Shown: positions 13,326 to 47,521 of the stretch, one piece after another | Position numbering within the stretch: position 1 is the stretch's first letter | How the letters are laid out: each line of letters begins with the position of its first letter | Source of the DNA: Bacteroidota bacterium | GTDB lineage: Bacteria; Bacteroidota; Bacteroidia; 2-12-FULL-35-15 | NCBI GenBank assembly: GCA_947504725.1 | Contig: CANNHN010000001.1 | Location: forward strand, 310,001 to 374,000 | DNA: 64,000 nucleotides | Direction: 5' to 3' | Position numbers and translations under genes: made by a program | Notes under the pieces: generated by a model | The model's database searches: none | Told to the model about the DNA's origin: nothing | What the model saw: only the letters and a program-made list of their open reading frames with translations

Positions 13326-15530
13326 ATGCGTTACCCTTTATTAATACTAATCTCATTATTTCCATTATTCTGCTCGGCCCAAAACCAAGAAGATGTTAAT
13401 ACTATCTGCATTTATAAAGCAATAGATAAGATAACCATAGATGGTGTTCTAAATGAACAATCTTGGGATTCGGCACAATCAACTGGAAATTTCAAACAGA
13501 TGTTCCCTTTCGATACTTCTATCGCTAAGACTCAAACAATTGTAAGAGTTACTTTTGACGATGTCAATCTTTATATATCAGCTGTTTGTTACGACTCATT
13601 AAAAGGAAAATACATTGTTCAATCTTTAAAACGCGATTTTTCTTATCCAGCTAACGATGCTTTTGCCGTGTATTTAGATTGCTTAAACGATCAAACAAAT
13701 GGCTTTTGTTTTGGTGTAAACCCAATGGGCGTTCAACGCGAAGGATTATTGTCAAATGGTGGCGGACAAGGTGTAACAACAATATGGGATAATAAATGGA
13801 CATCAGAAGTAAAACAATTTGAAGACAAGTGGATAGTTGAAATGGCTATTCCATTTAAAAGTTTGCGATTCAAAAGTGGTGTAGATACTTGGCGAATAAA
13901 TTTTTCTCGAAACGATTTAAAAAGAAACGAAAACTCTGTTTGGTCTCCTGTACCAAGAAACTTTAATGTTGCCTCATTAGCCTTTACAGGAAAATTAAAG
14001 TTTGATGAACCGAAAAAAAAGACCTCGTCCAACATTTCAATTATTCCTTATGTTACTGCTGGTGTTTCACAAGACTATCTAACTCAAACAAAAGAACAAT
14101 ACACCTACAATGGCGGATTGGATGCAAAAATTGCCCTTTCCTCTTCTTTGAATTTAGATTTAACCATAAATCCAGATTTTTCTCAAGTAGAAGTTGACAG
14201 ACAAGTTACTAACTTATCTCGCTTTAGTATTTTTTTTCCAGAAAGAAGAAACTTCTTTATTGAGAATAGTGATTTATTCGAACGATTTGGTTTTAGACAA
14301 ATCAGACCATTTTTTTCAAGAAATATTGGATTGTACAAAGGACAAATCGTTCCTATTTTGGGTGGATTTAGAATCAGCGGAAACATCAATAAAAAATGGA
14401 GAATTGGTGTAATGAGTATGCAAACTGAGCACAAACGAGAATTGGGGTTAGAAAGTCAAAATTATTCAGTTGCAGCAATTTCTAGAAATTTATTTAAACG
14501 CTCTAATATCTCTTTCATATTTGTAAACAAGCAAGAAGTTACTACTAAAGGAATATCAGATAATTTGTTTAATCGAATTGCTGGAGTGGATTACAATTTA
14601 CAATCAGCAAACAACAAATGGTTTGGTAAAATCTTTTATCATCATTCATTTACGGCTCAAAACCTTTCAAATGCTTCAGCTAATGCGTCTTTTCTTAGTT
14701 ATGCAACTCCAAAATTATCTTGTGAATGGAATCACGAATATGTAGAGAAAAATTATTTAGCTGATGTAGGATTTGTTCCACGCATTTATTTCTACGACCC
14801 ACAAACTGGAATAACAACCAGAGAAACGTATTTGAGAATAGAGCCGAATCTTCGTTATAAATTTTATCCAAAATCTAAGATAATAAACAACCATTATCCT
14901 GAAATAAGTGTGAGTCACTATTTAGATTCTGCATTAAACTCAACAGAATATCAATATCAACTTTCCTATAATTTCAATTTTCAGAACACGAGCTTACTTT
15001 CAATAAAGTACAGAAGAAATTTTATCAAGCTTCGTATTCCAGTAGATATTACATTTACTGGCAATACTCCTATTATTGCTGATAATTATTACTTTGAAAA
15101 CATCATTGCAACATATACTTCTAGTCCGATAAAACCATTGTTTGGAACGGCTACAGTTGATTATGGAACTTTTTATAATGGACATAAATTATCTTATTCA
15201 GGAGACATAAATTTCAGAAAACAACCATGGGGCGTTTTTGGAGTAAGTTTTTCACAGGATGAAATCATTTTACCAGAGCCTTTTAAGAATGCTTACATCA
15301 CTTTAGTTGGACCCAAAATAGAACTGAGTTTTACAAAAAATATTTTCTTTACCACATTTGCGCAATATAATACTCAAATAAACAATATGAATTTAAATTG
15401 TAGACTTCAATGGCGATTTAAACCCATGTCGGATTTATATATTGTTTATACCGACAACTACTACTCTATCGATATGACAAAGAAAAACAAAGCATTGGTG
15501 GTGAAGTTGATATATTGGATAAATGTTTAA
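13326..15530 (+). CDS. Outer-membrane protein: CBM9-like domain plus DUF5916 beta-barrel
   Basis: Signal peptide (MRYPLLILISLFPLFCSAQ), then a carbohydrate-binding-family-9-like beta-sandwich (about residues 30-220, KITIDGVLNEQSW is the hallmark opening), followed by a long DUF5916 region that by composition is a beta-barrel (alternating hydrophobic strands, aromatic ends, SQVEVDRQVTNLSRFSIFFPERRNFFIE as the linker). About 734 residues. The start at 13326 is chosen because an in-frame TTG at 13314 falls inside the -7 box. Family function is unknown; binding or uptake of a glycan or peptide is a guess. A paralogue lies at 26280-28742. No operon partner is seen. Confidence 0.85.
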   Translation: MRYPLLILISLFPLFCSAQNQEDVNTICIYKAIDKITIDGVLNEQSWDSAQSTGNFKQMFPFDTSIAKTQTIVRVTFDDVNLYISAVCYDSLKGKYIVQSLKRDFSYPANDAFAVYLDCLNDQTNGFCFGVNPMGVQREGLLSNGGGQGVTTIWDNKWTSEVKQFEDKWIVEMAIPFKSLRFKSGVDTWRINFSRNDLKRNENSVWSPVPRNFNVASLAFTGKLKFDEPKKKTSSNISIIPYVTAGVSQDYLTQTKEQYTYNGGLDAKIALSSSLNLDLTINPDFSQVEVDRQVTNLSRFSIFFPERRNFFIENSDLFERFGFRQIRPFFSRNIGLYKGQIVPILGGFRISGNINKKWRIGVMSMQTEHKRELGLESQNYSVAAISRNLFKRSNISFIFVNKQEVTTKGISDNLFNRIAGVDYNLQSANNKWFGKIFYHHSFTAQNLSNASANASFLSYATPKLSCEWNHEYVEKNYLADVGFVPRIYFYDPQTGITTRETYLRIEPNLRYKFYPKSKIINNHYPEISVSHYLDSALNSTEYQYQLSYNFNFQNTSLLSIKYRRNFIKLRIPVDITFTGNTPIIADNYYFENIIATYTSSPIKPLFGTATVDYGTFYNGHKLSYSGDINFRKQPWGVFGVSFSQDEIILPEPFKNAYITLVGPKIELSFTKNIFFTTFAQYNTQINNMNLNCRLQWRFKPMSDLYIVYTDNYYSIDMTKKNKALVVKLIYWINV

Positions 15531-15554
15531 CAAGAATGTTTATAGCTCTTACAT

Positions 15555-15620
15555 TTCGACTACGCTCAATGTGACGGTTGGGAGATGAAGGTCGCAAACG
15601 TCACCCTGAGCGTAGTCGAA
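15555..15620. repeat. Palindromic repeat with TTCGACTACGCTCA arms
   Basis: Two 22-bp arms (15555-15576 and 15599-15620) are inverted copies with two mismatches around a 22-nt centre. The right arm contains CGTCACCCTGAGCGTAGTCG. A solitary relative of that arm lies at 17723-17744, the other side of the cytochrome gene. It may also fold as a terminator between the convergent genes. Confidence 0.8.
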
Positions 15621-15642
15621 GGGCATGAAGTGGGCACGAAAA

Positions 15643-17673
15643 TCATTTCAAACCTTTCAACTGACTCAAAACCATCTTCGCTTGTTCTTGTTTGGGATTC
15701 TTTTTAAGAACTTGTTTTAAAATTTCTTCTGCTTCTTTAAACTTTTTCTGATAAATTTTTAATCCAGCCATATTCATCAATAAAGATTCATAATCAGGAT
15801 CTAGTTTTAATGCTCTGTTATAAAGCGCCTCTGCTTTTGATTCATTTCCGGAAATCAAATTTGCGTAACCTAAATTGTTTATGGATGGAACGTATTTAGG
15901 ATTTTCGTTTATAATCGTATTCAAAATAGCTATTGCTTCATCATATCTTTTCAATGCCATCATTGAAGCGGCATATTTGTTCCTAAATTCAGGATTTAGT
16001 GGCGATAAATCAATCGCATTTTTGAAGAATGGTAATGCTGAAGGAATGTCGCCTAAATTATAATACGATTCACCAATTCTGTAAGCAGTCCAAGCATTTG
16101 AATTATCTAGCGATATTTTGTTAATCGTTTGTTTAAACTTATTCAAACCCCCTATTTGATTTAAATAACCAATCACTTTTGCATAATCCAGCTTTATAAA
16201 ATTCAGATGAATTAATAATTCAAAATTTTTCTCAACATCTGCTTTTGTTTTATCTGATAAATAAAATGCCGCTGAATCTAAATATTCAGCTTTGTATTCA
16301 AACTTATCATACTGCTGGATATATGCTTTCGCTTTTGTATAGTTGCTTGGATTTTTTTCATTAATCGCATACAAACCAATAAACTCTTTCACCTTTTGAA
16401 CTTCTTCTTTCTTCATCGGTTTGCGGATATAATGATCATGCACACTCACATGTGGAATATCAATAGAACCCGAATTCGGCATGTGGCAACTCACACAATC
16501 ATTTTTTACTTTCGCTCGTACATTTTCCTTTTCAGAACACAAACCATTTTGTGCTGTTGTGCTATGACAATTTTTACACGCGTTATTGAAAACTTCTCCA
16601 CCCGTTGCTTTTACACTTACGTGAGGATTGTGGCAAGTAACACAAGTCAATGAGTTTTTATACGGACGCAAAGAAGTTTTATCAGATTCTTTTTTAAAGC
16701 TATTAATGAAACATTTGCTTTGTTTTAATCTATCTGCATGCGAAGCCATAATAAATTCATCATCTGCATTTTTGTAACGCGGCAAAAAAGTAGTCATGTA
16801 ATCCGAAAGCTTCATTCCTGGTTTGAAATCGAGGAATGATTTCCCTTCTTTCAAAACCGTGTTTCCCTGTAAGTGGCAACGCTGACAAACATCGAACTGT
16901 AAATCAATGGATAGTTTACCAGGATTCACAATCGAGTAATCAATATATTTAGAAGTATCAATTTTCGCTCCTGTTGATCTTTGTTCAACGTGAATACTTC
17001 CCGGTCCGTGACAACGTTCACAATTCACACCTTCAGGCAAAGCATTAAACTTATTTTCGGAGCCTTGTGCAAAGTCGGGCAATGAATTATGGCAACTCAT
17101 ACATTCCAAACCTATCTTGCGCGAAAAACGAGTATTAAATCCGTTTTCAAATCCAGGGGGGAAATCCCATTTTTGTTTTTGAGTATAATATGTCATTGGC
17201 ACTTGATGCAAATAACCATTTGAACTAGTAATATGCGAATTGGTATGCTGTCCCGAGCCAATTATATAATCAACTGATTCAACACGTTTAAAAATGGTGT
17301 CTTTCCCTTTCAAACGAAACTCCAATATTTTTAAACTATCGCCATTCCAAAACGGATGGTAGTAGAAATCTTGGAATTTATCGTAGATAACGGTATGCTC
17401 AGAAAATTTAGCGGAACTTTTTTGTTTGCTCGCCACTTCAAAACTTTTCCCCATTCCTGTTTCGATATAGGAATTGTAAATGTCTTGGTGACAAAGCTTG
17501 CATTGACTCATGCCAACGTATTTAGCAGAATCGTGATGATTTAAATAAACATTATCTAAAGTGGGATTATCTTTAGTATTTTCTTTAGGAGTGGAATCAC
17601 CGCAATAGACAATTGTAAGAATTACAACTGAGAATAATATTAGAGAAAGAATATTGCGAATGGAAAATTTCAT
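15643..17673 (-). CDS. Heptaheme c-type cytochrome with C-terminal TPR repeats
   Basis: Exported multiheme cytochrome, probably an anchored lipoprotein: start at 17673 gives a signal sequence ending VVILTIVYCGDS, with a cysteine at the lipobox position (the -1 residue is Tyr, so lipidation is not certain). Seven CxxCH heme motifs follow: CKLCH, CMSCH, CERCH, CQRCH, CVTCH, CKNCH and CVSCH, spread over about residues 50-400 in a cytochrome c554-like arrangement. The last ~200 residues are about four tetratricopeptide repeats (e.g. AWTAYRIGESYYNLGD). This looks like an electron-transfer protein fused to a protein-interaction scaffold. No nitrite, arsenite or metal reductase, NrfA or quinol-oxidising partner is adjacent, so the electron donor and acceptor are unknown. 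Confidence 0.88.
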   Translation of the reverse strand: MKFSIRNILSLILFSVVILTIVYCGDSTPKENTKDNPTLDNVYLNHHDSAKYVGMSQCKLCHQDIYNSYIETGMGKSFEVASKQKSSAKFSEHTVIYDKFQDFYYHPFWNGDSLKILEFRLKGKDTIFKRVESVDYIIGSGQHTNSHITSSNGYLHQVPMTYYTQKQKWDFPPGFENGFNTRFSRKIGLECMSCHNSLPDFAQGSENKFNALPEGVNCERCHGPGSIHVEQRSTGAKIDTSKYIDYSIVNPGKLSIDLQFDVCQRCHLQGNTVLKEGKSFLDFKPGMKLSDYMTTFLPRYKNADDEFIMASHADRLKQSKCFINSFKKESDKTSLRPYKNSLTCVTCHNPHVSVKATGGEVFNNACKNCHSTTAQNGLCSEKENVRAKVKNDCVSCHMPNSGSIDIPHVSVHDHYIRKPMKKEEVQKVKEFIGLYAINEKNPSNYTKAKAYIQQYDKFEYKAEYLDSAAFYLSDKTKADVEKNFELLIHLNFIKLDYAKVIGYLNQIGGLNKFKQTINKISLDNSNAWTAYRIGESYYNLGDIPSALPFFKNAIDLSPLNPEFRNKYAASMMALKRYDEAIAILNTIINENPKYVPSINNLGYANLISGNESKAEALYNRALKLDPDYESLLMNMAGLKIYQKKFKEAEEILKQVLKKNPKQEQAKMVLSQLKGLK

Positions 17674-36000: not shown

Positions 36001-36039
36001 AAAATAGGAATCAGTTAATATTATCTGATTCCTATTTTT
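36001..36039 (+). terminator. Intrinsic terminator of dnaA
   Basis: Perfect 14-bp stem AAAATAGGAATCAG (36001-36014) with CTGATTCCTATTTT (36025-36038), 10-nt loop, T-rich tail. TATTTTTG within the tail (36033-36040) also matches a -7 box and may start the next gene. Confidence 0.85.
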
Positions 36040-36058
36040 GTTTAAAACCTATTTTTCA

Positions 36059-39000
36059 ATGAAAATAGCCCTACGTCCAAAATATACATCAATCTGGTGT
36101 TCCCTGTTTTTTATCTTCATTTTTGCATTCACAGCAAAATCACAGCTATTCAACTTTAGAAATTATTCACTCGAAGATGGTTTGTCGCAATCTGAGATAA
36201 ATTGTATTTATGAAGATACTAGAGGTTATTTGTGGATTGGAACTGCAGGAGGTGGATTATGCCGTTTTGACGGAAAAGAATTTAAAACTTACGAAGAAAA
36301 AGATGGGTTATGCGGACAAATTATAACTGCTATTGCAGAAGACGCTTCTCACAGTATCATTATTGGAAATCATAATAGCGACCTATGCAAATTCGATGGT
36401 CAATCCTTCTCTCCTATTATTGTAAAAAAAGAGAAAAGCTATACGAGTGGAAACATTAAATTCATCATCACCGATGATAACAAAAACACCATTATATGTA
36501 GCGACAACAAAATTGTAAAATATAATGGAAAACAATTTATTGAATTATCTATAAAAAGTGACACCCTAAAATCATTTGACGTTAACTGTTTCAAAAAAGA
36601 CAGTCGTAACATCCTTTGGATTGGTACAAACAGAGGATTACTGGTTTTAAAAAACGAAACCTTGCTGCGTGTTACTGATATGGAATACATTAGCAACTCG
36701 AACATCACGTCATTATCTGAAGATACAGATGGAAATATATGGGCAATTACTGACCGATACAATTTTTATAAAATTAAAATTGTTGGTCCCTCCCATTACC
36801 AAGTAAAATCAAGCAAGTTTGACTCCATCCCACTTCCAATTGATACTAAAATTAATGCGATACATTTCGACTTAAAGGATCAATTATGGATTGCCACAGA
36901 AAACAAAGGTGTATACAAATTTCACGAACAAAAACTTACCAATTTTAATCAATCCAATGGCATGTCAGTAGACAACGCCAGTACAATTTTCGAAGACAAA
37001 TCAGAAAACCTTTGGTTTGGTACTAGTGGCGGTGGATTAGTGAAATTCACAAACCAAGCTTTTACCTATTACGAAAATCTGGAAGGATTAAAGGAGAAAG
37101 ATATTTTTGCGATTTGTGCAGATAAAAAAGGAAACATTTGGGTTGGGACTAGCTTACATGGAATTTATAAATACGATGGGAAGTCCGTTGAAAACATTTC
37201 AAAAACAAGTAAGATTACAGATCTAGAAGCGCGCTTCATCTATGCTGACTCAAAAGGAATTGTATGGATTGGAACTACAAAAGGATTGATAAAATACAAT
37301 GGCAGCAATTACCAACAAATGAATATTCCCAACTGCGAAAATGTGCGTGCTATTTTCGAAGATAAAAAAGGGAATCTCTGGATTGGGACAAGAGGACATG
37401 GAGCATTTGTATATGATGGCAAAACATTTAAACCTTTCGGTGCATCCGAAGGCTTAACCAATGATAATGTATACTCTTTTGTTCAAGATAAAAATGATGC
37501 CATTTGGATTGGAACGGGTAATGGTGTTTTTGTTTCCACTCTCGGGAAAATAACTAAAAAGTATGGAGAACAAGATGGACTTTGTAACTCTTATGCAGGT
37601 AGCATGGTTATTGATAAATTTGGAACAATTTGGGTCGGAACAGACAATTGTGTTGCTCGATTTGACGGAAATAAATTTATTAGTATCTCAACAAAAGAAG
37701 GCTTAGCATCTGGTACTGTTTATTTATTAAATACAGATCGATTAGGCAATATTTGGGTCGGGACGAACAAAGGATTGGATAAAATTATTTTGAATGAGAA
37801 AGGTGAAATTGAATTCATACGCAATTATGGTAAAGAAGAAGGCTTTAAAGGAATTGAATGTAATTCAAGAGCGACCTGTATCGATTGGAATGGTTCGCTT
37901 TGGTTCGGAACCATCAAAGGTGCTATTAAGTTTGACCCTCAAGAAGAACTGATTCGAAAACCGGAAGTACCAACCTTAAACATCACCAAGATAAAATTGT
38001 TTTATGAAGATGTAGATTGGAAAACATATTCTGATACCTTGTCGGAATGGTTTCAGCTGCCAATCAATCTTGTGCTTGCTCATAATGAAAATCATATCAC
38101 ATTTGAATTTGCTGCTTTAAGCAAAACTTCCCCGGAAAACATTCGTTATAGTTTTAAATTAGAAGGGTTTGATAAAGAATGGAGCCCCTTAAATAAACTA
38201 AGCTCTACCACCTACTCCAACTTACCTCCAGGTAAATACACATTCAAGGTAACAGCAGAAACAAAAGCAGGTATCACAACTGAAAAAGCACAAGAATTTA
38301 CTTTTCAAATTAATGCTCCTTTCTGGACCACCTGGTGGTTCATTATACTATGTGTTCTCGGATTAGGTGGTGCAATATACTTTTACAACGAATATCGTAA
38401 ACATAAGCATCAATTATACTTAGAGCGTTTGGAAAAAATTATTGGACAACGTACTGCAGAAATCATTAAACAACGGGATGAGAATGAAATTCTTTTAAAA
38501 GAAGTACATCACCGCGTAAAAAACAATTTACAAATCATCAATAGCTTGATTAACATTCAATCTGATTATGTAAATGACCCGAAATCGGCCGAACTCTTCC
38601 GTGAAATCAGAAATCGAATACGAACAATTTCTCTTGTGCACGAAAAGCTTTACAAATCAAATGATTACGGCAATATTAATGTTAAGGAATACCTAAACAT
38701 GCTTGTAGAAAACCTGATTGATACATATAGCATTGACAAAGAAATACAATTGAAGCTTGACTTAGAAATTCAGCATTTCAATTTAAATACAATCATTCCA
38801 CTTGGACTATTACTAAATGAAATTATTTCGAACTCATTTAAATATGCCTTTAAAGGAATCGATAACGGACAGATCGAAATCATACTTCATAAAACAAACT
38901 CTGATGAATATTCTATTATTATTGGAGATAATGGAATAGGATATGATGTAAAATTATTGAATACCGAAAACGCTACTCTTGGATTGGAGCTCATTAAAAT

Positions 39001-39088
39001 ACTTGCAAGCCAATTAAATGGTACAATTGAACGCATGGAGAAACAAGGAACATATTATATATTAAAATTCACTCCTCTAAAAGATTAA
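36059..39088 (+). CDS. Sensor histidine kinase with periplasmic two-component propeller
   Basis: 1009 residues. Signal/anchor (CSLFFIFIFAFTAKS), then two seven-bladed propeller domains (about 30-640) built from LWIGT-type repeats (LWIGTAGGGLCRFDG, NIWVGT, LWFGT), a Y_Y_Y domain (about 680-750), one membrane helix (about 755-777) and a cytoplasmic HisKA_2/HATPase module: EVHHRVKNNLQIINSL carries the phospho-acceptor histidine (about 817), LLLNEIISNSFKYAF is the N-box, IGDNGIGYD and ATLGLELIKILA the ATP lid. No receiver or AraC domain follows, so it is not a hybrid; no response regulator gene is adjacent. The ligand is unknown. ATG 36059 is used because the in-frame TTG at 36038 lies in the terminator. 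Confidence 0.9.
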   Translation: MKIALRPKYTSIWCSLFFIFIFAFTAKSQLFNFRNYSLEDGLSQSEINCIYEDTRGYLWIGTAGGGLCRFDGKEFKTYEEKDGLCGQIITAIAEDASHSIIIGNHNSDLCKFDGQSFSPIIVKKEKSYTSGNIKFIITDDNKNTIICSDNKIVKYNGKQFIELSIKSDTLKSFDVNCFKKDSRNILWIGTNRGLLVLKNETLLRVTDMEYISNSNITSLSEDTDGNIWAITDRYNFYKIKIVGPSHYQVKSSKFDSIPLPIDTKINAIHFDLKDQLWIATENKGVYKFHEQKLTNFNQSNGMSVDNASTIFEDKSENLWFGTSGGGLVKFTNQAFTYYENLEGLKEKDIFAICADKKGNIWVGTSLHGIYKYDGKSVENISKTSKITDLEARFIYADSKGIVWIGTTKGLIKYNGSNYQQMNIPNCENVRAIFEDKKGNLWIGTRGHGAFVYDGKTFKPFGASEGLTNDNVYSFVQDKNDAIWIGTGNGVFVSTLGKITKKYGEQDGLCNSYAGSMVIDKFGTIWVGTDNCVARFDGNKFISISTKEGLASGTVYLLNTDRLGNIWVGTNKGLDKIILNEKGEIEFIRNYGKEEGFKGIECNSRATCIDWNGSLWFGTIKGAIKFDPQEELIRKPEVPTLNITKIKLFYEDVDWKTYSDTLSEWFQLPINLVLAHNENHITFEFAALSKTSPENIRYSFKLEGFDKEWSPLNKLSSTTYSNLPPGKYTFKVTAETKAGITTEKAQEFTFQINAPFWTTWWFIILCVLGLGGAIYFYNEYRKHKHQLYLERLEKIIGQRTAEIIKQRDENEILLKEVHHRVKNNLQIINSLINIQSDYVNDPKSAELFREIRNRIRTISLVHEKLYKSNDYGNINVKEYLNMLVENLIDTYSIDKEIQLKLDLEIQHFNLNTIIPLGLLLNEIISNSFKYAFKGIDNGQIEIILHKTNSDEYSIIIGDNGIGYDVKLLNTENATLGLELIKILASQLNGTIERMEKQGTYYILKFTPLKD

Positions 39089-39094
39089 TTTTTT

Positions 39095-39565
39095 ATGCAA
39101 AAGATTTTAATGGTATGCCTTGGAAACATCTGCAGATCTCCACTTGCGGAAGGTATACTTCGAGAAAAAACAAACGAACTAGGAATTTCTGTTTATATTG
39201 ATTCTGCCGGAACATCTGATTACCATATTGGTGAGCACCCCGACAAACGGACAATTGCGAATGCGTTAAAACATAATGTTGACATTTCTAAATTAAAAGG
39301 ACGGCAATTCGTGATAGAAGATTTCGATAAATTCGATACAATTTTTGTGATGGACAGCTCCAATTATACAAATGTAATTGCATTAGCAAGAAATGAAGCA
39401 GATATCAAAAAGGTGGAACTCATATTAAATCGAATTCATCCAAATTCAAACATGGCAGTTCCCGACCCTTACTTTGGAGGCGAACAAGGCTTTGAAGATG
39501 TATTTGTACTTTTAGACAAAGCGTGTTCAACAATTGCAACTTCTTTAAAAAAAATCGTAAAATGA
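39095..39565 (+). CDS. Low-molecular-weight protein-tyrosine phosphatase
   Basis: 156 residues. P-loop VCLGNICRSPLAEG (CX5R with the catalytic cysteine) and the general-acid loop DPYFGGEQGF are intact. Starts 6 nt after the kinase and its stop overlaps the next ATG (ATGA). Such phosphatases often counter BY-kinases of exopolysaccharide synthesis, but no BY-kinase is in the window. Distinct from the arsenate reductase at 29540, which shares the fold but has redox cysteines. Confidence 0.92.
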   Translation: MQKILMVCLGNICRSPLAEGILREKTNELGISVYIDSAGTSDYHIGEHPDKRTIANALKHNVDISKLKGRQFVIEDFDKFDTIFVMDSSNYTNVIALARNEADIKKVELILNRIHPNSNMAVPDPYFGGEQGFEDVFVLLDKACSTIATSLKKIVK

Positions 39566-40275
39566 TTTCGAAAGGTATCCTATATTTAATTCCAACTACT
39601 CTTGGAGAAAATGCAGAAACAGCTGAAGTGATTCCTGCTAAAATCTATGATGTTATCAATACTATTGACGAATACATTGTAGAAAATGAAAAAACGGCTC
39701 GCCATTACTTAAAAAGACTGAGTATAAAAAAGCCATTACAAGAAATAATCTTACATCCTTTGAATCAACATACAAAACCTCTTGAAATTTCAACCTACTT
39801 AAATGCTATTAATGAAGGAAGAAATATTGGTGTTATTTCAGAAGCCGGTTGTCCAGGTGTTGCCGACCCTGGTTCAGAAGTAGTAAGATTAGCTCATTTA
39901 AACAACATTCAGGTAATTCCTTTGGTTGGCCCCTCCTCTATACTATTAGCAATGATGGCTTCCGGATTTAACGGACAAAGTTTTACGTTCAACGGATACT
40001 TACCTAAAGAAAGAAGCGAGAGAATTAAAAAAATCAAAGAATTAGAAAGACTCGTTTACAATAAAGACCAAACACAATTATTTATTGAAACGCCTTATCG
40101 AAATATGCACATATTAGAAGATGTATTAGCATCCTGTGAATCAAAAACAAAATTGTGCATCGCTTGTGATATCACTCTTCCAACAGAGTTTATAAAAACA
40201 AAAAGTATTGGGGAATGGAAAAAACAAATTCCAGAAATTGCAAAACGACCTACTCTCTTTTTAATTTACAAATAA
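39562..40275 (+). CDS. SAM-dependent methyltransferase, RsmI/tetrapyrrole-methylase fold
   Basis: 237 residues. Start at 39562 (MISKGILYLIPTTLGE) overlaps the phosphatase stop by ATGA. The family GILYLIPTTLGE, then RHYLKRLSIKKPLQEI, GVISEAGCPGVADPGSEVV and PLVGPSSILLAMMASGFNGQSFTFNGYL are typical of the RsmI group, which 2'-O-methylates C1402 of 16S rRNA. The Bacteroidota version differs from E. coli RsmI in its N-terminal region, so RsmI function is probable rather than sure. Its stop is immediately next to the stop of the convergent GT2 gene. Confidence 0.85.
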   Translation: MISKGILYLIPTTLGENAETAEVIPAKIYDVINTIDEYIVENEKTARHYLKRLSIKKPLQEIILHPLNQHTKPLEISTYLNAINEGRNIGVISEAGCPGVADPGSEVVRLAHLNNIQVIPLVGPSSILLAMMASGFNGQSFTFNGYLPKERSERIKKIKELERLVYNKDQTQLFIETPYRNMHILEDVLASCESKTKLCIACDITLPTEFIKTKSIGEWKKQIPEIAKRPTLFLIYK

Positions 40276-41589
40276 TTACAACTTTAATGCTTTTGCATGA
40301 CGCGATGATTTAGCAGGATTCCAACTATCCTTGTAAGATGCTTTAAAAAAGAGTTCTTGAATATAAGCAGTAGTTCTTACAATTCTAAGAAAATATCCAA
40401 AATAGAACACCATTAAAGGTAGGTATATCATGAAATAAGATACTGTTTCATTTTTTCGATCGCGAAATGGAGAAAAAACCAAAAACTTTAAAATATTGTT
40501 TGCCGTATACAGCAATATGTTCATCGGTAGAATAAAGAAAAGCTGAGAACCGAAATTGATAATCATATCACCAATATAAAAATACCACTTTACATTCAAA
40601 ATTAAATTGTAAGTAATATTTTCAACGAATGAAATAAAGTTTGACCATCTAAATGAATCATTTGGATAAAAAACATCGCGGTGTTTACGTAAACGAAATC
40701 TAATTAAAGATTTATCCCAACGCAGTCGTTGTTTAATAAGTTTTTTGAAAGTATTTGGAACACTTGTTTGACAAACTGCTGAAGGCTCAAAATGGATTTT
40801 ATATCCTAACTTTCGAATCTTAACGGTGATGTCTCCATCCAAACCTGGACCAATATCCCAACCACCTAAACGATCAAGCGCTTCTTTTTTAAATGCACCG
40901 AATGCTCCAGAAATAACACGATAAATACCTAATTCACTTGAAGCAATTCTACCAACAGAAATAGTATCCATGTATTCAATTGCCTGAAGCGTTGTACACA
41001 AACTTTCCTTGTAATTTCTTACTTGAACATTACCTCCTATCGCTCCAATATTTAAATCAAAGTAAAATGGAACTAAAATATTTTCAATAGCATCTCGATC
41101 ATACGAACAATCGGCATCCAAATGAATAATGTATTGTCCGCGTGAGTATCGCAATCCTAAATTTGCAGCAGATGCCTTTCCTCCTCTAACATCATTTCTA
41201 TAATATGCATCAATAAATCCATTTTGTTTAAGACTGCGACATATTTCAGGTGTTTGATCATCTGAGCCATCATCAATAACAATAAGCTCGAAATTGCGAT
41301 ATGTTTGTTCTTTAAGTGAATTTGCAAGCTTGTAAATGTGCTGACCTTCATTTTTACCTGGAACAATAACCGAAACAAATGGTTGTTTTTCCAATAAAGT
41401 TAAACGAGCATCTGCAATCTTCGTTTTACGAAAGAAACTAGTAAATCTCCATAAAACAAGTGTTGTAATTTCAATTAAGAAGAAACGAAAAAATTCGAAA
41501 ACGAAGAAAAACCAAAACATTCGAAAAAGTTTTGCTGCATCAACCGAAGTTGCGTAGTTGTAAAACTCATCTATAAACCTCATTAACAT
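40276..41589 (-). CDS. Processive family-2 glycosyltransferase, polysaccharide synthase-like
   Basis: 437 residues, inner membrane. N-terminal helix (about 18-48), cytosolic GT-A domain and two or three C-terminal helices. Signature: VIDDGSDDQTPEI, HLDADCSYDRDAI, GLDGDITVKIRKLG and QRLRWDKS (QxxRW), the set of processive synthases such as BcsA, PgaC or HAS. It is translated from a TAATG overlap with the zinc-ribbon gene upstream, and the HlyD and TolC/TIM-barrel genes precede that. This strongly suggests synthesis and export of an exopolysaccharide by one operon. The sugar is unknown. A second start two codons later (41583) is possible. Confidence 0.9.
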   Translation of the reverse strand: MLMRFIDEFYNYATSVDAAKLFRMFWFFFVFEFFRFFLIEITTLVLWRFTSFFRKTKIADARLTLLEKQPFVSVIVPGKNEGQHIYKLANSLKEQTYRNFELIVIDDGSDDQTPEICRSLKQNGFIDAYYRNDVRGGKASAANLGLRYSRGQYIIHLDADCSYDRDAIENILVPFYFDLNIGAIGGNVQVRNYKESLCTTLQAIEYMDTISVGRIASSELGIYRVISGAFGAFKKEALDRLGGWDIGPGLDGDITVKIRKLGYKIHFEPSAVCQTSVPNTFKKLIKQRLRWDKSLIRFRLRKHRDVFYPNDSFRWSNFISFVENITYNLILNVKWYFYIGDMIINFGSQLFFILPMNILLYTANNILKFLVFSPFRDRKNETVSYFMIYLPLMVFYFGYFLRIVRTTAYIQELFFKASYKDSWNPAKSSRHAKALKL

Positions 41590-43010
41590 TAGTCAAATAA
41601 ATCTTTTGTTAATTCCTGCAATTGAACCTCTGCTTTAGAGTGTGTATGCATAATTTTCCCTTTGTGAAGCACCTTCACATCAAAACCATTAAAATTTGTT
41701 TTGATAACCTTTTCTATAAGAATGCTTAAGTTCATTAATTGTTGTTCTGCTTTCATTGAATCCGTATTCATTAAGACCAAATAAAGCGTTGATGAATTTT
41801 CAAAGGCAATAAAATCAGAAGGTTTAATGTTTTCACGAATTAAATTGACCAAATCTTCAAGCAGGTTCTTTTCAGCTTTCTTTCCAATTTTATTATATAA
41901 TTCAAATATGTTTTCCATATTGATTAATGCAATACTGGTTTTTTGAGAAGGACTAGCCTTGATTCGCTCTAATTCATAATGCAACATAATTTTGAATGTC
42001 GCCATATTAATTGTTCCAAAAATATCTTCTATTTCTTGACCAGAAGATAGGAATCCGTTTGTAGCTGCAGCTCTACCTTTCTTCGTTAATTTATAAACGT
42101 TAATAGACTTTGGAATTAAATATTGAACTTCGATATCTTGTGTACACGAAATACATTTTGCTTTCACGAAAAAATCCTGAAAATTATTATCGCAGCTATT
42201 GCAATGATGTATAATAGAAGGTTTGTCATAATCAACACCTATATGACGAAGTCCTTTGTTACATTTAGGGCAAGTTAATGTATTGTCAATTGGATTTTTG
42301 AAATCCGAAATCGGTCCAATAAATGCACAAGGAAAATGATGCACTAAATCTTCGGATTTAGAGTTTGATGAATTACAATGTGGGCAAACTTCTCGATAAC
42401 TCAAGAAACCACTACTACATTGATTACATAAATAAATTCTTTCATGAAAATCGGGCCAAATTAAGCCTTCACGCTCTGCCCAATCAAAGATCTCTAGTAC
42501 TTGTGCTTCTTCAGCATCATCAAAATGAACAGAAATTTCCGGAAAAGTATATCCTATAATTGAATTTAAGTCAACGTAAGGTTTAAGAGTTCTTAATTCA
42601 CGCGTATACATATAGTTTAAAACCTTTTTCATCGTTTGTGCCTCAAATGATGGAATCAATTGATAATCGAGCTGATTGGTTTTGAAAAATATTTGTTTTA
42701 CCACTTCTGCAAATTCTTTTATCTGGTCATATGAATACACCAAACCATCATGCAAATAGTTTAAAAATGGATCTTTAGATTCTTTATAGTTAATTAAAAA
42801 TATAGGTTTTAAATAGAATTCTGGATTGTAATGCGTCCGAATTTTTTTAATAATGTATCTCGCAAAATCGTGATCACGTGCATCAATAATCAATGCATCG
42901 TAACCCATTAAGTGTTCAATTTTTAAACTAGAACTACTATCAACTGTATAAAACAATAAATTTTCAAATTCAATTTTATTGTCAACTATTTCTATTTTAT
43001 CGAATTTCAT
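41589..43010 (-). CDS. Zinc-ribbon (TackOD1-like) signalling protein with degenerate GGDEF-like end
   Basis: 473 residues, soluble. N-terminal ~120 residues have a receiver-like alternation (GYDALIIDARDHDFARYIIK) without a firm phospho-acceptor site. The middle (about 190-310) holds six CxxC-type knuckles in order: CNQC, CPHC, CPKC, CNSC, CISC plus single cysteines, a TackOD1-like metal-binding output domain. The C-terminal ~150 residues resemble a GGDEF domain (IALINMENIFELYNKIGKKAEK) but where GGDEF and the RxxD site should be it reads IKPSDFIAFENSSTLYLVL, so cyclase activity is unlikely. A c-di-GMP sensor or scaffold for the synthase is inferred. Overlaps the GT2 start by TAATG. Confidence 0.75.
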   Translation of the reverse strand: MKFDKIEIVDNKIEFENLLFYTVDSSSSLKIEHLMGYDALIIDARDHDFARYIIKKIRTHYNPEFYLKPIFLINYKESKDPFLNYLHDGLVYSYDQIKEFAEVVKQIFFKTNQLDYQLIPSFEAQTMKKVLNYMYTRELRTLKPYVDLNSIIGYTFPEISVHFDDAEEAQVLEIFDWAEREGLIWPDFHERIYLCNQCSSGFLSYREVCPHCNSSNSKSEDLVHHFPCAFIGPISDFKNPIDNTLTCPKCNKGLRHIGVDYDKPSIIHHCNSCDNNFQDFFVKAKCISCTQDIEVQYLIPKSINVYKLTKKGRAAATNGFLSSGQEIEDIFGTINMATFKIMLHYELERIKASPSQKTSIALINMENIFELYNKIGKKAEKNLLEDLVNLIRENIKPSDFIAFENSSTLYLVLMNTDSMKAEQQLMNLSILIEKVIKTNFNGFDVKVLHKGKIMHTHSKAEVQLQELTKDLFD

Positions 43011-43024
43011 TTTAAATTCAAGTT

Positions 43025-44107
43025 TTAGTATTTAAACTTTGTTACTGAAACACCCATCTTAAAAAATGCTCTCCAATGCTCGTAATCATTATCATTTACA
43101 GGATAAATATCTGCTGCAATTGTTCTTGTAGTAGGCTCATAACGTTTTTGAAATTCATCAGGCAACGGATATGTTGAATAATAGAATCGTTTGATAATTC
43201 CTTTGCTATCAGTACCATCAGGAAACTCAATATTTACTAAATCTCCTTCATGGAAATAGTTTAAATCGGCCTGTTCAAAAAAGCCTTTCACATACATTGG
43301 TGTGTTTTTATGAATCGCCATAATTTGCTCTGATTTTAAAGCTACTTCAAATTGACGAGTATATATTCGTGTTACTGTTCCATCTATTGGAGAATAAAAA
43401 ACTCGAATTCCATTTTCATCAGCATCTCCATTTCCTCCACCACCAATAGATGCCGTTTTTGTGCTTTTAACACTAGGAGTTTTTATCATGCTATTCAACT
43501 GCTTCAACAAACCGTACAACTGATTGTTTTCACTACTAAGTTTTGCAATGGCTGTATTCAAACGCAAGATTTCGTTTTGTACATAGTCCAAGCGATTTTT
43601 GGGAAGTACATCTAGTACAATTTCATTTTGCAAACGTTGGATTTCGCTTTTATAACTTCCAATTAATGCCGTAGATTCTGTAATGTCAATTTTATTCAAA
43701 GCCACTTTTTTCATCAAAGCATACTTTTCTTTTTCTATCCAATCCCATTCATTATCGTAACTCGTTGCCGTTACGTTTCCATTTAAGGCCATATTGCCCC
43801 ATAAATTATCCTTATCCAACGTATAAGTAAACAAAGAATCACCAACTTTTACAGTATCTCCTTCTTCTTTTTGGTAAGCCAAAATCCTACAATCATCTGT
43901 TAAACGAATGCTAACATTTTCGAACAGCACTTGCCCATCAGCCTTAATGAAAAATATTTTACTTATTGCATAGTATCCTATGAAAAAAGCTACAAGAGAC
44001 AGGAAAACGATATAGATAATTCTATCCCAATTTCTTTTAGGTTTCTTGAAATCTTCATTTACCACTCGAATTACTGAGTCCTTACGTTTAAAATCTACGC
44101 TTTTCAA
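43025..44107 (-). CDS. HlyD-type periplasmic adaptor protein
   Basis: 360 residues. Cytoplasmic N-terminus, one membrane helix (about 29-48, IIYIVFLSLVAFFIGYYAI), lipoyl-like half (RILAYQKEEGDTVKVGDSLF), a coiled-coil hairpin (about 125-215, IQRLQNEIVLDVLPKNRLDY), the returning lipoyl half with YSPIDGTVTRIYTRQ, and a beta-barrel ending (VKGFFEQADLNYFHEGDLVNI). This is the membrane-fusion layout, similar to Alg44/HlyD. 14 nt from both neighbours. It should bridge the inner-membrane synthase to the TolC-like channel, as in tripartite pumps. No ABC transporter is nearby, so the polymerase itself is the probable partner. Confidence 0.88.
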   Translation of the reverse strand: MKSVDFKRKDSVIRVVNEDFKKPKRNWDRIIYIVFLSLVAFFIGYYAISKIFFIKADGQVLFENVSIRLTDDCRILAYQKEEGDTVKVGDSLFTYTLDKDNLWGNMALNGNVTATSYDNEWDWIEKEKYALMKKVALNKIDITESTALIGSYKSEIQRLQNEIVLDVLPKNRLDYVQNEILRLNTAIAKLSSENNQLYGLLKQLNSMIKTPSVKSTKTASIGGGGNGDADENGIRVFYSPIDGTVTRIYTRQFEVALKSEQIMAIHKNTPMYVKGFFEQADLNYFHEGDLVNIEFPDGTDSKGIIKRFYYSTYPLPDEFQKRYEPTTRTIAADIYPVNDNDYEHWRAFFKMGVSVTKFKY

Positions 44108-44121
44108 AATATAATAGTTTA

Positions 44122-46221
44122 TTATTTTTCTTGAATAACACTCTGTTCATCTAGCTTTACAAATGTTTCTAAATCATGCAAAGCAAACTTGGATGTATTC
44201 AATGTCGTACTTATTTCATTAATTAATTTTTCGCATTCAGTTCTATTCTTAAAATCTTTTGCTCTTAATGCAATAACAGTTTTAGAAGCATCAAATCCAA
44301 ATTCTTCTTTTGTCTTACGAATAATAAATTCAGCATTCGGATGCTCGTAAGCCATTAAATAGACCAAATCCGATTGAGAATAAATTTCTTTCAAAATAGC
44401 TTCAGGATAAAACACAGGGATGGAAACTGTTAATTTCAACCCTTTCTGAGTGCAGTACACTTTTGCTTTTTTCAATAACTCAACATACTGATTTAAGTAT
44501 TTGTCTTTGTTTGTGTCATAATCACTCAACACATGTGGCTCAACATCTAAGTGTATTGCGGAGACTAGTTTCAAATCAATTCCATTGGTAATCGAATCTA
44601 GATATGTGGTAGGGTCTTTTGCGGAAAGCAATTTATTATTCCCTACTAATAATTCTGCTTGAACACCTTTTGAATTTAATTTCGTAAACAGAGTAATAGC
44701 TTCAGCCTTATTTGCTTGATCTTTTCTCAATGAAATAATAGCTATTGAAATTTTATTCAAACGAACATACTCTTCAATAAATTCAGGAGTGTATTTCGTT
44801 TGTGCTTCTGACCAAATATACAAAGCCTTATTTGTTTTTTCATGAACGATTTTCAGCGTATCAACCTTATAAGGCTTAATAAAGGTAGCTACTTCAGAGC
44901 CAGGAATCTTTGCATTGATGTCCAATAATTGCAAATACATTTCTTGTTGCAAATCCAAAAGTTCAACATCAACAGCTAATACTTCATCCAACAAATTCAA
45001 GGCAGCAAGAGGATTAAATTCATAATCTCCAAACTTTTGTTTTACTCGTTCCACACGGATTAACTCTTCATAACGTTTACGCTTTTCAAAAAAATTATTG
45101 TATTGCTTTAATTTATATCTGAATTCGTAAAACGAGTTTAATAAATCAGTTTCGTTTGTTGATGCTAATTCTTTTTGCTGATACTCCAACAATTTTGCTT
45201 GAGCAGTTACAACGCTCTTATTCGCTTTTATTCCTAATGGAATTGGGACAAATACACCTACCCCAGCTGACATAAAGCTTCTATTAGCAACCGAAGCAGT
45301 CACTAAATCGTAATAATTGTAACGGAGTTGAGTGTTTAATCGAATATCATTTAATGGCTTGTTCGACAATTCTAAATTTTCTATTTGCAATTTTAAAATA
45401 CTGTCGTTGGCTACTTTGTTTTCGCTATAAGTAAAGGTTTTAGAAATATCTACATCAAACAGAGGAAGAACATTTTTAGGCAATGTTTTAGGGTCTATTT
45501 GCATTGCCAATTGATCGTTATAACTTTTATATATTTGGTTCATACTCCCAATATCTACTTGCTGTTGCATAATATTTAGCAATTCGATTCGAGGTAAATG
45601 TTTAAGTAAATACAATTCGTTGGCAATCGTAATTTTATCGTTGATAATTTGCTGACGTTTTTCTAACAATATAATTTTATGGATATTGAAAGCATATATT
45701 ATTTTGTGAGAAATTGCAATATATTCGTCTCCAGCAATCTTTGTTTTCGGTTTTAATGAATGTATGGCATTTTCATTTTTTAATATCCGTTGCTTGTAGC
45801 GATTGCTAACAATTCCATTTGATAAAATATTCCAATCTAAACCAGCTTGAAATCTTCTGTTATAAAGTAAATTATCATCTGTGTTTAAGCCTGGATTAAA
45901 ATTCTCCAAATAACTAGCACTTCCTTCTAATCCAATATCCAGCTTCAATCGAGCAATTTTGGCGTCATTAACTTTCTTTTGATAATCGGCTATTGAAACA
46001 GAGTCAATTGACTTGATAGCATATAATTCGGGGATTACAGCATAACTTTCGTATGAAGGCCGAGCATTTGAAATATCATTGTACTTTTTCCAGAAAGCTG
46101 TTAAATCAGCTATTTTAGAACTTATTAACGAATCTTTATTATATGTAGTTTGAGAAAATGAAGAAAAAGCAAGCAAACACAAAAAATGTGTGACAAATCC
46201 TTTTATTGCTTTGTTTTTCAT
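44122..46221 (-). CDS. TolC-like outer-membrane channel fused to a glycosidase-like TIM barrel
   Basis: 699 residues. Start at 46221 gives MKNKAIKGFVTHFLCLLAFSSFS, a signal peptide; the frame runs six codons more upstream. About residues 25-465 form the TolC/OEP helical repeat (LEYQQKELASTNETDLLNSFYEFRYKLKQ and related coiled segments). About 490-690 look like a (beta/alpha)8 barrel: ISIAIISLRK, AIHLDVEPHV (an acidic DxE at strand 4), LKLTVSIPVFYPEAIL, LVYLMAYEHPN, TVIALRAKD, as in GH18-like or PgaB-like hydrolase domains. The fusion in one chain is unusual. First gene of the four-gene operon; a promoter lies just upstream. Catalysis is unproven. Confidence 0.78.
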   Translation of the reverse strand: MKNKAIKGFVTHFLCLLAFSSFSQTTYNKDSLISSKIADLTAFWKKYNDISNARPSYESYAVIPELYAIKSIDSVSIADYQKKVNDAKIARLKLDIGLEGSASYLENFNPGLNTDDNLLYNRRFQAGLDWNILSNGIVSNRYKQRILKNENAIHSLKPKTKIAGDEYIAISHKIIYAFNIHKIILLEKRQQIINDKITIANELYLLKHLPRIELLNIMQQQVDIGSMNQIYKSYNDQLAMQIDPKTLPKNVLPLFDVDISKTFTYSENKVANDSILKLQIENLELSNKPLNDIRLNTQLRYNYYDLVTASVANRSFMSAGVGVFVPIPLGIKANKSVVTAQAKLLEYQQKELASTNETDLLNSFYEFRYKLKQYNNFFEKRKRYEELIRVERVKQKFGDYEFNPLAALNLLDEVLAVDVELLDLQQEMYLQLLDINAKIPGSEVATFIKPYKVDTLKIVHEKTNKALYIWSEAQTKYTPEFIEEYVRLNKISIAIISLRKDQANKAEAITLFTKLNSKGVQAELLVGNNKLLSAKDPTTYLDSITNGIDLKLVSAIHLDVEPHVLSDYDTNKDKYLNQYVELLKKAKVYCTQKGLKLTVSIPVFYPEAILKEIYSQSDLVYLMAYEHPNAEFIIRKTKEEFGFDASKTVIALRAKDFKNRTECEKLINEISTTLNTSKFALHDLETFVKLDEQSVIQEK

Positions 46222-46259
46222 ACAGTTGAGTAGATACACCCTTAAAAAATTAGGGGACG

Positions 46260-46291
46260 CAAAAATAAGACTATTTCGTCAGCAAAACAAA
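46260..46291 (-). promoter_or_regulatory. Promoter of the polysaccharide operon
   Basis: On the minus strand TTTG (46288-46291), 20 nt, TATTTTTG (46260-46267): both consensus boxes, about 38 nt before the ATG at 46221. Confidence 0.65.
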
Positions 46292-46349: not shown

Positions 46350-47300
46350 TTAAAGCTTCTTTTCAATTTGATACTTATTTCTGTCGCTTGAACTGCGTGA
46401 AATAAGCTCTCCAATGAAGCCTGCAAGGAACAATTGAGTTCCAATTATCATGGCTACTAAAGCCAAATAAAACAATGGCTTATCCGTCACATCGCGTGTA
46501 GGAATTGCGTATGCCGATTTATATACTTTTTCTATGATCAAATACAAGGAAAGTCCGCCACCCATAAGGAAAGACAATGTTCCCCAAAAACCAAAAATAT
46601 GCATTGGCCGCTTCCCGAATTTTGAAACAAAAGTGATTGACATTAGATCCAAAAAGCCATTGATAAAGCGCTCAAATCCAAATTTAGTAACGCCATATTT
46701 GCGTTCTCGGTGTTGAACAACCTTCTCCTCTATCTTTGTAAAGCCTGCCCATTTTGCAATAACGGGAATGTACCGGTGCATTTCGCCATATACTTCAATG
46801 TTTTTTACAACAGCTTGACTATACGCTTTTAGTCCACAGTTAAAATCATGTAAATTATTAATTCCACTGGCTTTGCGAGTCGCCCAGTTGAATAATTTGG
46901 TAGGTATTGTCTTAGAAATAGGATCGTAACGTTTTTGCTTCCAACCAGAAACTAAGTCTAATCCATCAACCGCAATCATTTTATATAATTCAGGAATTTC
47001 ATCAGGTGAATCCTGCAAATCAGCATCCATAGTGATTACTACATCTCCTTGAACCGCTTCGAAACCAACATTTAAAGCAGCTGATTTCCCGTAATTTCTA
47101 CGAAACTTTATCCCTCTAATGTTTTGATTTTTAGCAGAAAGTGCCTCAATCACATTCCAAGATTTATCTCTAGAACCATCGTCAATTAAGATAATTTCAT
47201 AGGAATACGAAAAAGTAGTCATCACCCTTTCTATCCATTCGCACAATTCGGGTAGGGATTCTTCTTCGTTATATAAAGGTATTACAACTGAAATGTTCAT
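46350..47300 (-). CDS. Family-2 glycosyltransferase, DPM1/GtrB-like
   Basis: 316 residues. Start at 47300 gives MNISVVIPLYNEEESLPEL, while the frame continues 72 codons upstream into a repeat that is not protein. Catalytic motifs IILIDDGSRDKSW, VVITMDADLQDSPDEIPEL and the loop GLDLVSGWKQKR, then DFNCGLKAYS and two C-terminal membrane helices (about 235-260 and 275-300). This is the polyprenyl-phosphate sugar transferase group (DPM, GtrB, ArnC). It is not in the polysaccharide operon; its promoter is separate, almost at the start codon. Confidence 0.9.
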   Translation of the reverse strand: MNISVVIPLYNEEESLPELCEWIERVMTTFSYSYEIILIDDGSRDKSWNVIEALSAKNQNIRGIKFRRNYGKSAALNVGFEAVQGDVVITMDADLQDSPDEIPELYKMIAVDGLDLVSGWKQKRYDPISKTIPTKLFNWATRKASGINNLHDFNCGLKAYSQAVVKNIEVYGEMHRYIPVIAKWAGFTKIEEKVVQHRERKYGVTKFGFERFINGFLDLMSITFVSKFGKRPMHIFGFWGTLSFLMGGGLSLYLIIEKVYKSAYAIPTRDVTDKPLFYLALVAMIIGTQLFLAGFIGELISRSSSDRNKYQIEKKL

Positions 47301-47306
47301 TCGTGG

Positions 47307-47314
47307 CAAATATA
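47307..47314 (-). promoter_or_regulatory. Putative -7 box TATATTTG of the GtrB-like gene
   Basis: Exact TAnnTTTG on the minus strand with only 6 nt to the ATG at 47300, so the transcript would be leaderless or nearly so. It also excludes the longer upstream reading frame. Confidence 0.6.
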
Positions 47315-47398
47315 TAGACAAAATGCTAATTGATACGATTCTATTAGACTTTTTTAACAGACTAAGGAAAAAGTAGATAGTAGAAAGATTTAACGGAG

Positions 47399-47521
47399 CG
47401 TCATTGCGAGTCATGGCCCGAGTATCGGGACAGGATGTGGCAATCTCTTCCATAATCGTAATTCTAGTCCTCATCGTGAGAGATTGCCACATCATGCTAA
47501 AAAGCATGACTCGCAATGACG
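47399..47521. repeat. Nested 123-nt palindromic repeat
   Basis: Outer arms CGTCATTGCGAGTCATG (47399-47415) and CATGACTCGCAATGACG (47505-47521) are a perfect 17-bp inverted pair; inner arms GATGTGGCAATCTCT (47434-47448) and AGAGATTGCCACATC (47479-47493) a perfect 15-bp pair. No ORF of quality. MITE-like or a genome-wide palindromic repeat. It lies between the GtrB-like gene and the SRP RNA. Confidence 0.85.

Follow-up and report, generated by a model that had tools for sequence, protein, structure and literature searches.

Here we report a four-gene operon from a Bacteroidota bacterium that most likely encodes a synthase-dependent exopolysaccharide machine, in which a GT2 synthase would deliver its product through an HlyD adaptor to a TolC-type channel and would be switched by a TackOD1 protein. 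We put the probability of this reading at roughly three in four. The operon, found in a stretch of 64,000 nucleotides (the window, to which coordinates refer unless a locus is named), is real, widespread and coherent, and it passes the full tests of no known exopolysaccharide family.

Organization of the operon

Four open reading frames lie on the minus strand of the window in the order OMF-barrel, HlyD, TackOD1 protein and GT2, and analysis of the strand confirmed the predicted four-gene operon with its coordinates and its intergenic gaps of 14, 14 and -1 nt. The first gene (44122-46239, minus strand) encodes a TolC-type outer-membrane channel of the OEP family with a C-terminal TIM barrel; judged by homologues, its start is likely the ATG at 46221, the ORF itself opening at 46239. 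It is followed by the gene for an HlyD/EmrA-type periplasmic adaptor (43025-44107, minus strand), which has a TTG start codon, by that for the TackOD1 protein (41589-43010, minus strand), a putative cytoplasmic regulator with a receiver-like N-terminus, TackOD1 zinc ribbons and a degenerate GGDEF domain, and by that for a membrane-embedded, PgaC/IcaA-like GT2 synthase (40276-41589, minus strand). The string TTTG-N20-TATTTTTG, proposed as the one promoter of the operon, is indeed present upstream (46260-46291, minus strand), where it is plausible by position only. It matched 4 times in the window against 3.23 expected by shuffling, and at this chance-level frequency it was rejected as evidence. 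A second GT2, resembling polyprenyl-phosphate sugar transferases, lies just upstream on the same strand (46350-47516, minus strand); it is kept beside the operon within the genus of the window and is missing from most other lineages.

The GT2 synthase

The window GT2 contains hydrophobic segments and matched Glycos_transf_2 at 2.5e-29. It carries QRLRW (40717-40731, minus strand), an instance of the QxxRW motif of processive GT2 synthases, and QRxRW was present in 37/37 Bacteroidota and 9/9 Pseudomonadota relatives. The nearest curated family of all members tested was the PNAG synthase PgaC/IcaA (TIGR03937). Both features agree with the predicted processive type of the enzyme, as far as sequence can tell. 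Its score against the PgaC model was 176.7 bits, far below the cut-off of 422.3, so the sugar is uncertain. In a maximum-likelihood tree rooted by midpoint, 32 linked bacterial GT2s, including one from Sinorhizobium medicae whose sole linkage is to a short zinc-ribbon ORF, formed one clade (95/90) apart from PgaC/IcaA, and the Bacteroidota GT2s were grouped with support of 100/100.

The channel and its C-terminal barrel

The OEP match of the window protein (0.00058) lies just under the Pfam cut-off; OEP was matched by 17 of the 30 channel family members, the best at 2e-11, and the channel assignment draws on these matches together with the structure model. A profile of the whole OMF gave no matches in the PDB. 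The channel part of the AlphaFold2 model is of low confidence. The C-terminal domain (44122-44856, minus strand) is a GH18-like (beta/alpha)8 barrel according to the AlphaFold2 model, in which it has eight strands with pLDDT of about 71-94, and to Foldseek and family profiles. The Foldseek matches comprised tryptophan synthase alpha, which is a TIM barrel of generic type, along with GH18 chitinases and endo-N-acetylglucosaminidases. Pfam GH18 was matched by 4 of 11 family barrels (best 1.6e-6), and the window's own barrel gave no match to that model. At the end of strand 4 stands the motif HLDVEPH (44533-44553, minus strand), invariant in an alignment of 11 barrel sequences and near-invariant in a wider set. 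Strand 4 is also where GH18 enzymes have their catalytic motif (DxxDxDxE), and the E of DxE is the candidate catalytic acid. The barrel shares LDVEP with PDB 10yv, a structure that could hint at its substrate; the entry is titled 'Putative GH97 from Cellulomonas fimi', and its GH97 label seems odd.

The original prediction had placed a hydrolase on the channel itself, and a domain of hydrolase type is found there by fold and motif, in a fusion that recurs in Aeromonas (below). As the termini of TolC are periplasmic, the hydrolase is expected in the periplasm, where the barrel may act as a polymer-modifying enzyme. For GH18 as a family it is established that the substrate must bear an N-acetyl group. 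A polymer of N-acetylhexosamine is our best guess because a GH18-like barrel is combined with a GT2 resembling PNAG synthases, and the product is probably rich in this kind of sugar.

HLDVEPH is lost in locus L021, and the barrel is missing from L023-L025 and reduced in L029. L021 and L023-L025 have instead a gene for a TviB-type UDP-GlcNAc C6-dehydrogenase (L021, 8255-9622; L023, 10715-12082; L024, 10515-11888; L025, 8076-9443), L029 being without both. The dehydrogenase gene lies within these operons and suggests that they make a polymer of N-acetylhexosaminuronic acid. Since the barrel-less representatives placed in the tree belong to one GT2 subclade, the anticorrelation of barrel and dehydrogenase amounts to about one evolutionary event; with the barrel absent or reduced in that subclade, the domain is not essential. 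Two channel proteins are extra long (L070, 2034-4730, 898 aa; L074, 5079-7739, 886 aa), and these are presumably the two family members that matched the BNR/YCF48 repeat model.

Gene set and order across Bacteroidota

TackOD1 exceeded the cut-off in 10 of 297 genomes of a phylum-wide sample, in 23 of 395 genomes of the class and in 11 of 36 genomes of the order. The Bacteroidota loci were extended and then annotated with family profiles. The order OMF-HlyD-TackOD1-GT2 was found in 30/30 non-duplicate loci, window included, the count being made on complete loci with above-cutoff TackOD1 and leaving out those cut by a contig end. Intergenic gaps were mostly of a few bases. Loci truncated at a contig end or retrieved incompletely showed the expected part of the operon. 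Co-occurrence of the four families, the check suggested with the original prediction, was far beyond chance, and their order is fixed. When the barrel domain was searched in the 297 genomes, strong matches (E<1e-89) were confined to TackOD1-carrying genomes. Among sub-cutoff TackOD1 matches, L031 proved to be a multihaem cytochrome cluster and was rejected as a relative, and L054 holds a lone TackOD1-like gene.

Other genes were seen near the operon in some loci. Downstream of the GT2, L018 encodes a CotH-kinase protein bearing a Por secretion tail (13399-16041), and L019, L076, L082 and L084 have ORFs of similar size, about 880 aa, at the corresponding site. Similar-looking lipoproteins, one of them with DUF4114, are encoded next to or within the operon in family f24, in L026 (6552-7823), L027 (12037-13317) and L023 (12273-14237).

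Linkage outside Bacteroidota

Outside Bacteroidota, a tblastn search of 72,556 plasmids with the TackOD1 protein gave 20 plasmid records, from Pseudomonadota and haloarchaea. In the Pseudomonadota plasmid loci that were read, the genes that come after TackOD1 encode a glycosyltransferase and an HlyD-type protein, as in Plesiomonas, Palleronia, Phyllobacterium, Aminobacter, Roseibium, Methylocystis and two Rhodobacterales (with galE). The TackOD1-GT2-HlyD set of Photobacterium was recognised by profile, and in Alisedimentitalea the TackOD1 and GT2 genes are separated by a gene of 342 bp. Where HlyD was unannotated, its identity rests on profiles and Pfam, and in Methylocystis on the family profile only.

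On plasmid pKAM329_3 of Aeromonas caviae, genes for TackOD1-GGDEF, GT2, a 'TolC family protein' of 694 residues and HlyD lie side by side. This TolC ends in the barrel domain, which has the motif HLDLE, and scored 20.8 bits with the barrel profile against at most 1.6 bits in 1,000 shuffles. Methylocystis has a separate barrel gene between HlyD and TolC (24.2 bits with the barrel profile). Most Pseudomonadota loci keep GT2 and HlyD with no TolC gene or pump adjacent, so that a shared TolC must be assumed for them.

A reverse search of the same 72,556 plasmids with the window GT2 placed all of its best 14 places in TackOD1-carrying records, followed by a Levilactobacillus GT2 and PgaC/IcaA; the ranking is by coverage times identity, and two unannotated rhizobial/sphingomonad GT2s rank lower in it despite good E-values. 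The window HlyD found no match on the plasmids by tblastn, though HlyD genes are annotated there, which argues that HlyD diverges fast. A Halorussus plasmid (L106, 3134-6095) has TackOD1, DUF2334 and GT2 genes in a row, with no HlyD or TolC; this haloarchaeon has no outer membrane. The Halorussus GT2 sits on a long branch of the tree and its position is unsure. The other haloarchaeal TackOD1 genes that were read had no GT2 alongside.

The HlyD adaptor and its partners

The adaptor matched HlyD_3 at 7.8e-6 and has one N-terminal membrane anchor at about residues 33-52, as judged by hydropathy; its profile found EmrA, LipC and MacA in the PDB. The absence of a nearby ABC transporter for the HlyD/TolC pair, as predicted, is supported by a regular-expression scan for ABC ATPase motifs in 37 loci, which revealed no consistent partner: such ATPases were present in only 5 of the 37, none nearer than 4 kb. 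It could be argued that the pair serves an efflux or type 1 pump encoded elsewhere, with the GT2 only glycosylating or being a chance neighbour, since the HlyD profile is closest to the EmrA and MacA adaptors and tripartite pumps are able to work with partners whose genes lie at other sites. We consider this unlikely, because in two phyla no complete Gram-negative locus has HlyD without GT2 and TackOD1, the TackOD1 and GT2 genes abut or overlap in most loci, the few ABC ATPases lie at least 4 kb away and most Pseudomonadota loci retain GT2 with HlyD in the absence of a neighbouring pump.

Proposed mechanism

In the favoured reading of a synthase-dependent machine, the GT2 would act in the cytoplasm to polymerise a UDP-sugar that is probably GlcNAc-like, and the chain would be threaded across the membrane by way of a channel within the GT2 itself. 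HlyD, anchored in the inner membrane, would bridge the synthase to the TolC-type outer-membrane channel in a physical complex, and the chain would pass through this tripartite conduit and leave without an ABC transporter. The GH18-like hydrolase on the channel C-terminus may trim or clear the chain in the periplasm. The cytoplasmic TackOD1 protein would activate the synthase; in this organism it would most likely answer to a two-component phosphorelay, as its output, and not to c-di-GMP.

We further consider it probable, with somewhat less confidence, that these loci constitute an unrecognised class of machine, in which a response-regulator-like TackOD1 protein and a distinct GT2 clade are joined to HlyD, with export via TolC and a hydrolase in or beside the channel. 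The class would span Bacteroidota and Pseudomonadota, a mobilizable Aeromonas plasmid included, with a stripped TackOD1-GT2 form in one haloarchaeon, and control of a GT2 synthase would be the first function for TackOD1. If this is true, a TolC-type channel can be the direct outlet of a polysaccharide synthase, and the hydrolase can be part of the channel protein.

Comparison with known systems

No description of this gene set was found in the open-licence literature. The published definition of synthase-dependent systems rests on two components, a c-di-GMP subunit and a TPR/outer-membrane pore, and mentions neither TolC nor HlyD (PMC7112194). The present operon shares with this kind (Pel, Bcs, Alg, PNAG) a membrane GT2 encoded in an operon; it differs in having an OEP/TolC-type channel and HlyD in place of a TPR scaffold and beta-barrel pore, and no c-di-GMP receptor subunit was found in the window genome. 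Unlike the PNAG system, it is without genes for PgaA, PgaB and PgaD, and its GT2 falls in a separate clade. As in alginate Alg8/Alg44, the GT2 is partnered by a membrane-fusion (HlyD-like) co-polymerase, but Alg44 carries PilZ and alginate exits via AlgK/AlgE, not TolC (PMC8461298).

The statement in the original prediction that no system is known with a TolC-type channel and HlyD adaptor but no ABC transporter was too strong, as the XcsAB-TolC model (PMC12430437) and the BgsBA pair (PMC9495663) exist. BgsBA, the rhizobial mixed-linkage beta-glucan system, consists of two genes, for a GT2 and an HlyD-domain protein, with a proposed role in polymer expulsion (PMC9495663, PMC5567048). Its GT2 is cellulose-synthase-like and binds c-di-GMP at the C-terminus, and BgsBA as described in these two papers is without TackOD1, a dedicated channel or a hydrolase.

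XcsAB-TolC, proposed for cyanobacterial cellulose export, is unvalidated, and its genes do not form a single operon (PMC12430437, citing Maeda et al. 2018). According to the account in this review, it likewise combines a GT2, an HlyD-like adaptor and a TolC-like channel without an ABC transporter and has an associated hydrolase gene. These three common export parts would allow the window operon to be a Bacteroidota form of XcsAB-TolC, which we regard as improbable. As that account has it, the genes are scattered in T. vulcanus, unlike those of the window, and the system comprises a cellulose synthase with PilZ and a separate endoglucanase, with no TackOD1; the window GT2 scored 33 bits against the CelA model (cut-off 699) and had no PilZ match, and the barrel resembles GH18 and is no endoglucanase. 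The exopolysaccharide machine proposed here would put the XcsAB-TolC idea, as outlined in that 2025 review (PMC12430437), into compact operons, where it is testable.

The TackOD1 regulator

The TackOD1 domain (PF18551; 42087-42641, minus strand) matched at 9.2e-51, with 172.5 bits against a Pfam cut-off of 32, and its 11 conserved cysteines are kept in 36-37 of 37 family members. It is preceded by a receiver-like N-terminal domain (residues 1-115; 42666-43010, minus strand), which in its window type forms a separate gene of 109-119 aa in five loci. A true Response_reg domain was found in 5 of 27 TackOD1 relatives (best 3.7e-25), TackOD1 itself being present in all 27. The C-terminal part has a degenerate GGDEF fold (41718-42008, minus strand) with a weak match in the window protein (0.0045); the profile of the regulator family matches diguanylate cyclases at 9.7e-8. 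The window protein has NSSTL, and relatives have other strings, in place of GG[DE]EF, and RxxD is not conserved in the Bacteroidota regulators. The structure model of TackOD1 was poor (pLDDT 45.5) and was left out of the fold search.

The original prediction had linked the regulator to c-di-GMP. In gammaproteobacterial relatives RxxD is kept (FRDTD, VRDTD) and GGDEF is above cut-off, which resembles the PelD receptor (PMC8461298), and a PelD-like role is possible there. For the window organism c-di-GMP control was rejected: a Pel-like system with the GGDEF-like end as receptor is very improbable and largely refuted, given the degenerate motif, the window genome (99.6% complete) with no GGDEF, EAL or PilZ match at E<=1e-3, and the other carriers, 26 of 29 of which were without any GGDEF match and only 2 of which were above cut-off.

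By its sequence the regulator looks like a response regulator, and control by a phosphorelay would fit the window best. Histidine kinase, Hpt or receiver genes adjoin the operon in three lineages. The one open-licence paper found on TackOD1 describes the domain in archaeal two-component systems, with REC-TackOD1 architectures and function unknown (PMC5847659). Here the same domain is found in proteins that also carry a degenerate GGDEF and whose genes are linked to GT2 synthases. If the proposed switch is true, this uncharacterised domain gains a function. TackOD1 would then also be a means of searching for exopolysaccharide loci that are likely to be overlooked by pipelines starting from Pel, Bcs, Alg and PNAG genes.

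Convergent with the operon, on the plus strand, lie genes for a histidine kinase (36038-39088), a low-molecular-weight phosphatase (39095-39565) and an RsmI-like protein (39523-40275), the three being largely syntenic across the genus. The kinase is of the two-component-propeller type (Reg_prop, Y_Y_Y, HisKA_2) and could be the partner of the TackOD1 regulator.
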